This document shows, piece after piece, positions 58,008 to 64,000 of a stretch of DNA of 64,000 nt. The notes under the pieces are model-generated. The model worked only from the letters and a program-made list of their open reading frames with translations. It was not told where the DNA came from and made no database searches. Source of the DNA: Calothrix sp. PCC 7103 (GTDB lineage Bacteria; Cyanobacteriota; Cyanobacteriia; Cyanobacteriales; Nostocaceae). The translations under genes were made by a program, and so were the position numbers. How positions within the stretch are numbered: position 1 is the first letter of the stretch; each line of letters starts with the position of its first letter. The stretch is from the NCBI RefSeq assembly GCF_000331305.1, contig NZ_KB217478.1, forward strand, positions 8,339,481 through 8,403,480, in the 5' to 3' direction.

Positions 58008-58081
58008 TCGGAACGTTGGGATTTGAACCCAAGACCTCCACTACCCCAAAGTGGCGCGCTACCAAGCTGCGCTACGCCCCG
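58008..58081 (-). tRNA. tRNA-Pro (anticodon GGG)
   Basis: Acceptor CGGGGCG pairs with CGTTCCG (two G-T pairs), D arm GCGC...GCGC, anticodon stem CCACT/AGTGG with loop TTGGGGT (U33, anticodon GGG), and T arm TTGGG TTCAAAT CCCAA. The discriminator is A. CCA is not encoded. All arms are canonical. Confidence 0.92.
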
Positions 58082-59136: not shown

Positions 59137-59373
59137 CTAGACTTCACCAATGATTTCCGGTTGAGTTAGCTCATCTGACATTTCGATAATTGCGCGCAAT
59201 ACAGGTTTCATGAGCGTATCATCGGCATTATCAAAATCTTCGTAACGGCGCCGTTTTGCACGGTTAGCAACTTGAACCGTGATGCGATAACGATTTGAGG
59301 CTGCATGTATCAAATCTTCAGCACGGTGCATAATCTGAGACTGAGTTGTCTCGAACTTTGAACGCTTGAGCAT
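59137..59373 (-). CDS. rpoZ: RNA polymerase omega subunit
   Basis: 78 residues from the ATG at 59373 ([43 protein letters not shown]); a GTG two codons upstream is less likely. The [13 protein letters not shown] segment and length match the cyanobacterial/plastid ycf61-type omega. Stabilises the beta' subunit in the RNA polymerase core. Confidence 0.95.
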
Positions 59374-59495
59374 AATCACTGGTTCAGTAGAACAACTTTT
59401 AGTTTAGCACTCGTGATTCATTACTCCGGGTAGAGGATATACATACAGTTGAAATTTTATAAGTAGCTTGTAATATCACCTAAATTTAGCAACTT

Positions 59496-60336: not shown

Positions 60337-60366
60337 TGTAGAGACGCGATTAATCGCGTCTCTACA
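60337..60366. repeat. Perfect 30-base palindrome
   Basis: TGTAGAGACGCGATT with its exact complement. The same family as 47869-47898, with GCG instead of GTG at the centre of each arm. Confidence 0.85.
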
Positions 60367-60392
60367 TTTTATTTGTTATGTTAACTAATATA

Positions 60393-60436
60393 AAACTGGG
60401 TAACTTCTCGGTTATACCTACTAAGCTACCCAGTTT
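60393..60436 (-). terminator. Likely terminator of the DGR transcript
   Basis: AAACTGGGTA and TACCCAGTTT form a ten-pair stem around 24 bases. On the minus strand it lies 110 bases beyond the TR and is followed by TTATATT. Confidence 0.5.
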
Positions 60437-60484
60437 GGTTTGATTTTTGGATACTGTCACCAGCATCACCGGAACAGGGCTGGA

Positions 60485-60540
60485 CTCTTCTCTGACACTC
60501 CCAACGAATTAACTAATTCGCCAGCTCTCGTACAGAAGAG
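60485..60540 (-). promoter_or_regulatory. Nested hairpin immediately 3' of the TR
   Basis: CTCTTCT (60485) pairs with AGAAGAG (60534), enclosing a perfect CGAATTA-AC-TAATTCG hairpin (60505-60520). In the TR-RNA sense it begins four bases after the TR. TR-RNA function in studied DGRs depends on structured flanks; a similar job here is inference. Confidence 0.5.
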
Positions 60541-60544
60541 CGCT

Positions 60545-60668
60545 CGCCGCACCACCACACACCACCCGAAAACCGTTGTTGTTGTTATCGTTGTCGGGAG
60601 TGTTCCTGTTGCGATAAGCAGAACGGCAGTTATGCGGATTGTTGTTCCACGAACCACCGCGCAGCAGT
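60545..60668 (-). repeat. DGR template repeat (TR), 124 bases
   Basis: Matches VR (63122-63245) at 110 of 124 positions. All 14 differences fall on adenines of the TR sense (minus) strand. In that frame the TR reads with AAC/AAT codons at the variable sites ([11 protein letters not shown] and [10 protein letters not shown]), the usual diversification-ready template. It lies 20 bases beyond the RT stop. Confidence 0.97.
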
Positions 60669-60688
60669 CGGGGTTGCCTGTCCCTTCT

Positions 60689-61747
60689 CTACACTCTCAT
60701 CCAGTCGAGAGTTTTAGATATTTGTTGTTGTAGTTGGTAAGTATCGCCGTGTTGTAGATGGGCAAACCAACTGTTCATTGATTGGGATACTTTTTTTATG
60801 TCAATTCTGTTATTTATATATTCATGGTGCATTTTTCTGATACGGCGCCTTGCCCTACGCAAGTTTTCGGTACGCACACGAATACGGTCTGGTAACACGC
60901 GAAAACCTAAGAAATTGGCGCCGTGTTTTGTTTCAAATAATTGGCTCTTCACAGGATGGATTTTTATTCTCAGTCCCGTTAAATATTCTTCGATAGCGAG
61001 TCTGGCATCTACTAAGAACTCTTTATCATCGGCGAACAAAGCAAAATCATCAACGTAGCGAAGATATTTTTTGACTTTGAGTTGCTCTTTTATATAATGG
61101 TCAAAACCATTCATATAGACATTAGCAAAAAATTGGCTAGTTAAATTACCAATTGGTAAACCTCGGCGCCGTTCTAAGGGAGTGAGTAAATTATCTCCAT
61201 CAAAATGTTCCACTGCTGGGTATTGTTCATTACTGTTATCGATAATAGTATCAATTAGCCAAAGCGTATCTGGACATTTGATTTTGCGGCGTAGTAAACC
61301 TTTGAGAATTTCATGGTCAATACTAGGGAAATATTTTTGAATATCGCATTGTAACACATAGCGACTTGAGCGAGCAAAGCCAATAAAACGACGTAGCGCG
61401 CGGTGAGTACCAAAAGCAACACGGTTCGCGTATGAATCTGCTATAAAAGTTTTTTCGATAGGCGCCGCAATTACATTACACAAAGCATGATGTACCACCC
61501 TATCTCTATACGGAGCAGCAGAAATCATTCTAATTTTAGGCTCGTGAATGTAAAAAGTTTTGTAGGCGCCGGGTTGATAAGTTTTGTGCTTCAATTTCGC
61601 TTGCGTTCGGAAAATCTCATTCTCCAAATTATAATTATAAGCCAAAACACCCTGCCGATAACGTTTTCCCTTTTCAGCTTTTTCCGCTGCCGAAAGAAGA
61701 TTCTCAAAATCAGTAATAGCACTATAAAGACAACCCAACCTCTTCAT
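60689..61747 (-). CDS. DGR reverse transcriptase
   Basis: 352 residues from the ATG at 61747 ([18 protein letters not shown]), the usual DGR-RT start; a longer frame would overlap avd. The RT motifs are complete: [11 protein letters not shown], first catalytic Asp in [12 protein letters not shown] near 135, LPIGNLTSQ near 197-205 in place of the retroviral QGxxxSP (diagnostic for DGRs), YVDD at 231-234, and GANFLGFRV. It copies TR RNA into adenine-mutagenised cDNA that replaces VR. No endonuclease or RNase H domain, as is usual. Confidence 0.96.
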
Positions 61748-61781
61748 ATTTGTTCGTATATTGTTTGTAGTAAGCACTTTA

Positions 61782-62222
61782 TTACTTATATTTTTGCTGC
61801 TTAATCCAACCACCTAACTGAATACCAATCTCATAAATTGACTCCCCTGCGACTTTATAGCGATGTATAGGGATTAATTTAAGTTTCCTTAAAATGCGAG
61901 TTTGACAACGCAAAAGCTGCAACTGAGTATTGAGTAACTCTAACTTCTGTAATTTTTGATTTGCATAACGAGCTTCAACCAATCCCTCATAAAAGCTGTA
62001 CAACCTATTTGATATTCTATCTCCTAAACCAAACTTATAAGACTTGTTTAGACCATTGAGAATAGGAATATACCAAATGATGAAATCAAACGTTTTTTGA
62101 ATAATACTTAACTCATCTTTATCCTCTAGCAAATCATTCTCTAAAAAATCATCATCTACAGAATCATCCATTGAAAATTCATCCATATACACCCGGTTAA
62201 ATGACATTTTTGTAACCGACAT
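61782..62222 (-). CDS. avd: Avd-like DGR accessory protein
   Basis: 146 residues. After an acidic N-terminus ([22 protein letters not shown]) comes the four-helix Avd core: [59 protein letters not shown] and the closing [18 protein letters not shown]. In characterised DGRs Avd forms a pentamer that binds the RT and TR RNA and is needed for mutagenic homing. The acidic N-terminal extension is not part of the minimal core. 34 bases upstream of the RT start. Confidence 0.93.
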
Positions 62223-63109
62223 TCACATCATATAACCCAAAAATCTCAACACAAACATCGTGAAATATTTTGATATATTATATAAAATTTCGCAATGTAA
62301 AGTATGAATATATATTACTTTTTGTAATTATTTGAAAATCAAACTATTTTGGCTCAGAGTTTTTAAAAACTTTAATATTATTCAATCATATTAAACTATA
62401 AAATCAGATTTTTGCAACATGTATTACTGTCAATATAGTACCCAATTGTGTGTATAAGCCTTATTGTTGCTGTATCAGTTTTATCTGTTTTCCGTTGAAA
62501 GTGGGACAGGCTGCGATTCCTATGCCACAAAAGTTTCACTAAATGATTCTGTGTAAATGAAATAATTGTCTGCTTTGCAGCAAGCTTAGAAATTATAAAA
62601 AATTGGTTGCGGCAAAAACGCGATAGGGAGCGTCTCTACAACAATAAATAAAGATATAGACACTTAATATTTTGAATGTAGTGTTTCTGTATAATGCCAA
62701 TATTCCTTGTTTAACTTATATCTTGAACCTACACCCTAGAAGGGTAGGGCTATACAAACTAAGCCTGCCTACGCAGGCTAAAAATACTGATTATTCGTCT
62801 TGTTGATAAAAAGATGTGTTTATTAATTATTGAAAATCTAAGTATTAATACGTATTATGATTATATATTAAGCTATCCTTTGGGAAAGGCTGCATTTTAC
62901 GCATTCAGCTTTACATGTCTTAATATTTCGCTTTAATCCAAATAACCTAGAGATGCAACACAATATATATAGCTTCTCTAAAAAAATAACTTGACAATAA
63001 ACGTTTAAACTTGATATAGTAATATCGGAAAAATAAATTCGGCTCGCTTCGCTCGCAAGAAGGGTAAAAAAATACAGGGTAGAGGGTAAGAGTGTAAAAG
63101 TGTCAAGGG
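62223..63109. other. ~890-base gap between DGR target and avd
   Basis: AT-rich with stops throughout. Holds a degraded GTAGAGACG repeat arm (about 62617-62640) and an AGCCTGC/GCAGGCT hairpin near 62764-62781. No GGCGCC site and no second TR-like copy were seen. Coding frames here are antisense shadows or noise. Confidence 0.6.
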
Positions 63110-63445
63110 TTAAAGAATCCACGCCGCACCACCACACACCACCCGAAAACCGAAGTGGAAGTAATCGAGGCCGGGAGTGTTCCTGCTGCGATAAGCAGAA
63201 CGGCAGTAACGCGGATAGTTGCTCCACGAACCACCGCGCAGCAGTTTTTGATTACCATTATCAATTTTTAATTCTGTATTTTCCCTTGCTCCGGCATTGT
63301 CATAATTAGGTTTGGCTGAATAATTATCGGCACACCATTCCCAAACATTGCCATGCATATCATATAAACCGAAATGGTTAGGAGGAAAAATCCCTACTGT
63401 AGTAGTTTTTTCTCTATCTTCACCTTTCGGAGCATCGGCGTAGGG
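63110..63445 (-). pseudogene. DGR target, C-terminal part downstream of internal stop
   Basis: 111 codons in the same frame as 63446-64000, cut off by the TAA at 63446. Reads PYADAPKGEDREKTTTVGIF, then LYDMHGNVWEWCADN and the VR-coded LLRGGSWSNYPRYCRSAYR to the end (CGGAAWIL). This is the second half of a SUMF1/FGE (C-type-lectin-like) fold with the variable surface. An internal start at ATG 63358 is possible but would give half a fold. Confidence 0.8.
63122..63245 (-). repeat. DGR variable repeat (VR), 124 bases
   Basis: Pairs with TR at 60545-60668. Compared with TR, eleven codons differ (for example Asn to Ser, Tyr, Leu, Phe, His; His to Arg; Asp to Gly), all through changes at TR adenines. 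Its 3' end is the GC-rich invariant tail (GGTGGTGCGGCG) expected for the homing initiation region, shared with TR. Confidence 0.97.
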
Positions 63446-64000
63446 TTATCGTGTACAGTCAAAATTCGCTAACTCGCTTGTAATAGTTTCACCAAAATGG
63501 AACGGAGTAATAGTTCCAGCACGGCAGGCGTATTCCCATTCAGCTTCGCTCGGCAGTCGGTAATTACGTCCACTATATTTAGTTAGTCTATCACAAAACT
63601 CTATAGTAGAGTACCATGATATTCGCTCTACTGGCAACTCATCACCTTTAAAACGTGATGGTTCGGGTTTTAATTCACGATTTATTTGTGGTAATGCTGC
63701 AACCGCACGCCATTGTGCCTGAGTAACTGGGTATTTGCCCATGAAAAAGGGTTGAACTGTAACTTCATGCTGCGGACGTTCATTATCTCTACTACCTTCT
63801 TCACCTTCCGGCGCCCCCATTAAAAATGTACCACCTGGAATTGCGACCATATCGAGAGTAATTTCATTGCCAAGATTTTCGGTAAAGTATTGTGCAGTTA
63901 GACTTTCGCGGTTAACGATGGCGCCGCGACGGTTGACTGTTACAGTTTCAAAGGAGAATGTTTGTAGTTCTGAAGTACCTCTTTCCAAAGCTATCTCCTG
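63446..64000 (-). CDS. DGR target protein, SUMF1/FGE domain, N-terminal part (partial)
   Basis: The frame stays open to the window edge, so the start lies outside. Visible residues: TVNRRGAIVNRESLTAQYF linker, then the FGE-sulfatase domain (LDMVAIPGGTFLMGAPEGEE, FFMGKYPVTQAQWRAVA, NYRLPSEAEWEYACRAGT). It ends ANFDCTR followed by TAA, where related proteins continue with a sugar-fold loop (typically NYPYADAPKG). Cyanobacterial DGRs often diversify exactly this domain, giving a ligand-binding, probably surface-exposed protein. Alternatively the stop is an assembly or sequencing error. Confidence 0.9.
   Translation of the reverse strand, partial: QEIALERGTSELQTFSFETVTVNRRGAIVNRESLTAQYFTENLGNEITLDMVAIPGGTFLMGAPEGEEGSRDNERPQHEVTVQPFFMGKYPVTQAQWRAVAALPQINRELKPEPSRFKGDELPVERISWYSTIEFCDRLTKYSGRNYRLPSEAEWEYACRAGTITPFHFGETITSELANFDCTR

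Follow-up and report, generated by a model that had tools for sequence, protein, structure and literature searches.

The 3′ end of a 64,000-nt stretch of the Calothrix sp. PCC 7103 genome (assembly GCF_000331305.1, contig NZ_KB217478.1; hereafter the window) carries on its minus strand what is, judged by its sequence, a genuine diversity-generating retroelement (DGR) of the known cyanobacterial kind. We consider it very probable that this is a cyanobacterial DGR bound to a VMAP-type ternary conflict system and working as proposed below, an estimate that concerns identity and design and not present activity. In the order of transcription, the locus comprises the middle and end of a target gene, an AT-rich gap, avd (accessory variability determinant), the reverse transcriptase (RT) gene, a template repeat (TR) and a structured RNA (Table 1). 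A sequence-only reading of the window had recognised a DGR with all core parts here, and the RT, the Avd, the TR just after the RT and the variable repeat (VR) were all confirmed. Loci, contigs and genomes used for comparison are designated L, C and G, and published papers are cited for those passages in them that bear on the point.

The RT contains both of the motifs named in that reading, LPIGNLTSQ and YVDD, within its 352 aa; the open reading frame (ORF) spans 60689-61813 on the minus strand, and a start at GTG 61813 would give 374 aa. It matches RVT_1 at 78.4 bits and PHROG family phrog_1423 (reverse transcriptase) at 405.7 bits. By sequence search of the PDB, its nearest solved structure is 8ub7 (168.8 bits), followed by group II intron RTs at 68.6 bits or less; 8ub7 is the RT of phage BPP-1, because the phage's own brt matches it over 1-328 at 765.5 bits. 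Phylogeny had been proposed as a test, and a 48-row tree placed the window RT among DGR RTs: it joined L086, L087 and L091 from other genera of its family (support 99/95) and did not group with the two further DGR RTs that its genome encodes. Four longer own-genome RTs, which were taken as group II intron RTs by length and one of which (L001) has an Rfam group II intron match beside it, split off at 93/93, with warnings about long branches. Proximity to the BPP-1 RT and position in the tree thus identify an RT of DGR type. The Avd-like gene likewise proved to be what it had been called, matching NCBIfam DivGenRetAVD at 111.3 bits (cut-off 80) and Pfam bAvd at 61.4 bits (cut-off 40). That the RT instead belongs to a group II intron or retron and lies beside a chance repeat has a negligible probability: an NCBIfam group II intron RT model does match at 128.9 bits, far below its cut-off of 300, but the Avd, the BPP-1 RT as nearest structure and the tree rule this out, and the adenine-only TR/VR differences described below already contradict it. 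A recent phage source is not indicated either, as two IMG/VR loci matched at 37-41% identity in a search that finds close relatives only, and 165 of 165 matching phage records fell below 60% identity.

Over 119 core columns of the TR/VR alignment, 14 of the 28 TR adenines are changed in the local VR and all 91 other bases are the same (hypergeometric P 6.8e-11). In a blastn alignment that runs to 133 columns, 15 adenine and three non-adenine differences are counted, the latter lying at the 3′ edge, beyond the repeat. Seventeen TR codons contain adenine, none of which can become a stop by changes at adenine, and about 2.7e16 proteins are reachable from the TR by such changes. The whole-genome TR search suggested earlier as a way to find further VRs returned 10 places at E 0.01: the TR itself, the local VR, C7:5170806, C12:805886 and six TRs and VRs of two other own-genome DGRs or their relatives. 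The VR at C7:5170806 ends a kinase-FGE gene and differs from the window TR at 15 of 28 adenines and none of the 91 other bases (P 9e-12). At C12:805886 the VR lies in a frameshifted TIR-FGE gene and shows changes at 15/28 adenines and 12/91 other positions, and it is regarded as decayed; this gene (L021:4729-6019, C12:805 kb) is split over two frames, and its decayed VR is nearest to the window TR. Of the two other DGRs, DGR B (C7:5.99 Mb) is open in both its RT and its target frame, and its VR is changed at 8/30 adenines and 0/83 other bases. DGR C (C10:0.22 Mb) has two VRs, each with 0/94 non-adenine changes relative to its own TR, and an RT with an in-frame TAA near its start (L023, C10:223.0-224.1 kb); a stopped RT with clean VRs would reflect either recent death or service in trans. 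No TR is a good fit for the two FGE genes at C10:55-56 kb, which show 12 and 14 non-adenine changes of 94 against TR C.

The local target is interrupted. Both of its pieces belong to the FGE-sulfatase family, as expected of the SUMF1/FGE-type gene described earlier, and the VR does occupy the 3′ end of this FGE frame, yet the gene is not intact in this assembly, nor is it contained in the roughly 3.5 kb to which it had been assigned: it starts outside the window (ORF L019:5927-8125). The frame runs for 732 codons from beyond the window to a TAA and is then open through the end of the VR, the TAA lying 67 codons upstream of the start of the TR/VR alignment. The VR is therefore not translated with the rest of the target, and no full-length variable protein can come from the local cassette in its present form. 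We rejected a DGR origin for the stop, because no TR codon reaches a stop via adenine changes and the TAA lies outside the VR. Alternatively, the stop could be an assembly or single-copy artefact, with the population, perhaps polyploid, still carrying an intact local target. There is one assembly only, the frame holds no further stop between the TAA and the VR end, and homologous loci with open targets exist; against this, comparison with paralogues by eye puts the stop within a short altered segment rather than at a homopolymer, and two loci of other species of the genus with related targets, L082 and L083, are also broken, at other places. On balance an artefact is unlikely. In L082 and L083, one break is a TAA and the other a frameshift inside the VR; their RTs fall on the DGR B branch (100/100), but their targets are related to the window's along the full length (54-55%), and we took these breaks to be separate events. 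Broken targets as a genus-wide rule were not established, since the counts vary with the rule applied: 6 of 95 VR genes have fewer than 200 open codons before the VR, and L088 and L136 come on top, each with a stop within its VR, while an alternative rule gives 10/95, with some frames doubtful.

A better candidate for a working target lies 3.23 Mb away. The kinase-FGE ORF at C7 is intact at 555 aa, with a Pkinase match of 140.2 bits. Its FGE match, at 186.9 bits, extends over positions 4-254 of 255, and a further match to this FGE part is 2y3c, the solved structure of a Treponema DGR variable protein. A VR at the 3′ end of its target is thus found in trans, in an open gene, whereas in cis the VR ends an FGE frame with a TAA upstream. 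Since the TR matches the kinase VR at all 91 non-adenines, the likely live target would be acted upon in trans, and going by these alignments the working target is more likely to be remote than local. The truncated own target, together with a kinase target fitting the same TR, makes the locus a natural test of homing in trans. It is conceivable, though in our view rather unlikely, that the DGR died recently, so that RT, TR and RNA are intact, the local target is non-functional, no homing takes place now and the clean matches record past activity. The TAA in the local target, the in-frame TAA near the RT start of DGR C and the frameshifted, non-adenine-altered VR gene at C12:805886 are all in keeping with such a death, but the RT and Avd frames are open, both VRs show 0/91 non-adenine changes and the kinase target is intact. 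This alternative shares the identity of the locus with our preferred interpretation and differs on present activity, so the two are not exclusive.

Beyond the window, the DGR proved to be the 3′ end of a larger operon that reads EAD1-TIR, EAD1-VMAP, MoxR-like ATPase, target, Avd, RT and TR. All operon domain matches lie above Pfam cut-offs, the two EAD1 matches at 80.2 and 70.6 bits, and both a MoxR-like ATPase and a VMAP protein are present, as in VMAP ternary systems; the MoxR label is given by context, Pfam bpMoxR having no match to the ATPase protein. The EAD1-TIR/EAD1-VMAP/MoxR/target layout is that of Kaur et al. (2020, PMC7159879), which has been tied to DGR-diversified sensors (PMC10907252), and sensors of VMAP ternary systems seem to be what most DGRs in this clade of multicellular cyanobacteria diversify (PMC10907252). 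The locus belongs to this published cyanobacterial "VMAP ternary" type and adds one more example to a known class. Among the loci compared, the closest full match is in Scytonema sp. RU_4_4 (L163), with the order VMAP, MoxR, target, RT, TR and RNA and with identities to the window locus of 43% (VMAP), 66% (MoxR), 61% (target) and 75% (RT). Its target is open, with 880 codons before the GFR motif of the VR.

On this basis, we propose that the TR would be transcribed together with its 3′ structured RNA, which RT and Avd would bind, copying the TR into complementary DNA (cDNA) and misreading adenines. An FGE/C-type-lectin gene would then have its 3′-terminal VR replaced by this cDNA, which would vary the ligand-contact residues and leave the scaffold unchanged. 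The diversified protein may serve as an antigen sensor, the MoxR-like ATPase relaying its signal to EAD1-VMAP and EAD1-TIR. Here the local sensor is cut short; the protein that is intact and whose VR fits this TR is the Ser/Thr kinase-FGE fusion, to which homing would presumably occur in trans. Studies in Nostoc punctiforme describe a highly expressed TR-RNA and adenine-specific mutation that is low but seen by resequencing (PMC12691664).

Several observations weigh against this interpretation. The local target is broken, and the kinase VR may be a relic of earlier homing. No Pfam vWA match was found in the target; a putative vWA domain is suggested by a DxSxS-like motif (by eye) and by related targets, and the DGR B target matches VWA_CoxE at 43.1 bits. 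Scytonema L163 yielded no Avd by tblastn at E 1e-10 (L163:8877-10001) and no separate EAD1-TIR gene in the stretch covered. Lastly, a post-VR hairpin of the BPP-1 type was not seen at the window VR (z +0.51). In 95 related VRs, a set that excluded the kinase VR, the mean z for this hairpin was -1.56, with z below -2 in 36/95 and a perfect stem of at least 7 bp in 6/95; the hairpin as a constant feature was thus not borne out.

Another feature of the locus is the RNA directly 3′ of the TR, a region conserved across related DGRs. RNAalifold on 52 loci gave 40 pairs, 30 of them with compensatory changes; 95.2% of cells were paired, compared with 31-43% when slid, and double-change cells numbered 356 against a shuffled mean of 100.7. 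The alignment (A1) holds 52 of the 57 loci sharing an AGTCCAG anchor, which is lacking in 11 of 68 loci. These 68, out of 83, have a "clean" TR by a filter that requires an adenine excess, and therefore their adenine pattern is not independent evidence. A model, R1, was built from 43 sequences, the window's own among them. It matches the window and 33 of 38 named RT loci; Thiotrichaceae and a Desantisbacteria metagenome-assembled genome (46.8 bits) are among the matches, and L192, L196, L197, L198 and L199 are missed. At least L164 and L172 of the 38 are probably the same sequences as training members. In 27 loci drawn from the 31 outside A1, R1 matched 24 and missed L101, L129 and L152. There was no match at E 1 in five own-genome loci of other RTs, the BPP-1 record or two viral loci. 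In L173, L174, L180 and L194 the TR-marking RNA lies on the strand opposite the RT, so template and RT are not always co-directional.

The Rfam family RT-14 (RF02921) is probably the same element as this TR-adjoining RNA. Both in the window and in L109 its model aligns end to end (1-144 of 144), with scores of 47.8 and 46.5 bits, respectively, that fall below the gathering threshold of 48.1, the former only just; there was no gathering match in 10 sister loci, and at E 0.05 only L109 of nine loci matched. We found no link between RT-14 and DGRs in the literature searched, the two likeliest papers lying outside that search. In BPP-1 this position is taken by a structured spacer, which brings in RT-Avd and primes the synthesis of cDNA (PMC12875486), and by analogy the RNA described here may be its equivalent and play the same role. 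The idea of such a role is not new, as flanking RNA has been predicted to be part of the DGR particle in N. punctiforme (PMC12691664). A covarying RNA that marks TRs could find templates, orphans included, without RT or repeat searches.

Templates lacking a nearby RT gene were also found with R1. Among 388 genomes of the order, R1 was found in 109 (E 1e-6) and the RT in 72 (E 1e-110); 70 genomes had both, two the RT only and 39 the RNA only, the last being an upper figure because the RT was sought at a stringent limit and the faintest RNA matches lie close to theirs. From these 39 we picked 16, of which 10 had no RT match at E 1e-20 and six a partial one; in one of the 10 (G119), a less strict E brought out a short stretch of RT next to the RNA. 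Of 20 fetched RNA loci, five had RT pieces and 15 had no RT or Avd within the stretch (tblastn). A VR was visible in the stretch in eight of the 15 and in none of the remaining seven, which include an own-genome copy. Non-adenine differences numbered two in L209, L210, L221 and L222, four in L220, and 9 to 17 in L208, L213 and L219, whose VRs look decayed.

The best case is a caspase-like-FGE gene with a VR, followed by TR and RNA, in G241, G288 and G295 (L209, L210 and L222). The TR is identical in these three species. Of its 28 adenines, 14, 8 and 12 are changed in the respective VRs, each of which also has two non-adenine differences in the last few letters at the edge. Genome-wide searches of G241 and G288 detected neither an RT at E 1e-20 nor an Avd above the Pfam cut-off; G295 has RT and Avd elsewhere in its genome. 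These cassettes fit templates served in trans or a recent loss of the RT. DGR action in trans as such is already known (PMC10907252). For RT-less TR-RNA-VR cassettes, no account was found in the literature searched, the relevant passages of PMC4372165 and PMC5299996 being on other matters. We tentatively suggest, with somewhat less than even confidence, that the unit of the cyanobacterial DGR is the template RNA (TR plus 3′ structured RNA) and not the RT locus. RTs would then serve several TRs and VRs genome-wide, RT-less "non-autonomous DGRs" would persist across species, fed in trans or by an unrecognised RT, and the window DGR would be kept for its distant customer. The TR-marking RNA offers a concrete test of such RT-to-TR service, and it is this part that could move the field.

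The own-genome copy (L207:9585-9727, C12:812584-812726) is a worn template RNA that adjoins an apparent kinase gene remnant; as a fourth DGR it was rejected, there being no TR, VR, RT or Avd beside it. A palindromic repeat, possibly a small mobile repeat, was also noted, with its core TGTAGAGACG at window 60337-60366 and a related arm at 62618-62641; a like repeat lies between VR and TR in L209 and L210.

Table 1. Features of the DGR locus, its operon, the RT-less cassettes and neighbouring genes (window positions unless a locus is named).
Feature	Position	Strand	Remarks
Structured RNA	60391..60544	-	~153 nt, directly 3′ of TR; model R1 143.2 bits, E 1.7e-35
Template repeat (TR)	60545..60667	-	123 nt; 21 bases past RT stop
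DGR reverse transcriptase (RT)	60689..61747	-	352 aa from ATG 61747
Avd	61782..62222	-	Family match from residue 38 on
Target frame, 3′ part	63110..63445	-	FGE C-terminal half including VR; stop separates upstream part
Variable repeat (VR)	63122..63244	-	Adenine-only mismatches to TR
In-frame TAA	63446..63448	-	Truncates target
Target upstream part, 3′ end	63446..64000	-	FGE N-terminal half; 732-codon frame extends past window end
MoxR-like ATPase	L019:8221-9126	Same as DGR	AAA_5 43.8 bits; adjoins target
EAD1-VMAP-M1-VMAP-C protein	L019:9952-11490	Same as DGR	512-aa ORF; VMAP-C 70.4, VMAP-M1 30.6 bits
EAD1-TIR protein	L019:11636-12376	Same as DGR	TIR_2 88.3 bits
Caspase-like-FGE cassettes	L209:8966-9640, L210:8960-9658, L222 (minus strand)		No RT or Avd found in stretch
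RNA polymerase omega subunit	59137-59379		Ordinary neighbour
tRNA	58008-58081		Ordinary neighbour

Compared with known systems, the locus is a well-formed, ordinary member of its class, of which the truncated local target, the clean trans target and the template RNA are worth following. With the BPP-1 DGR it shares the RT-Avd-TR-VR logic, adenine mutagenesis and a structured spacer 3′ of the TR (spacer: PMC12875486), but the TR precedes the RT in BPP-1 and follows it in the window. It resembles the clade 5E DGRs (Dore et al., 2024, PMC10907252; Kaur et al., 2020, PMC7159879) in its RT, Avd, TR, MoxR ATPase and EAD and TIR partners, as well as in an FGE/C-type lectin (CLec) VR at the 3′ end of a putatively vWA-like target and in the presence of more than one DGR per genome; the clade 5E label is applied by description only. 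In contrast to those DGRs, the local sensor here is truncated and the TR is common to a kinase-FGE gene 3.23 Mb away, although trans targets and disrupted RT loci described in Thiohalocapsa are a likeness to the present case (Dore et al., 2024, PMC10907252). The cyanobacterial remote kinase targets of Vallota-Eastman et al. (2020, PMC7517822) are alike in combining CLec and Ser/Thr kinase domains, in carrying the VR at the 3′ end and in lying far from the DGR; they were linked at >50% identity, whereas here the match is exact at 91 of 91 non-adenines.

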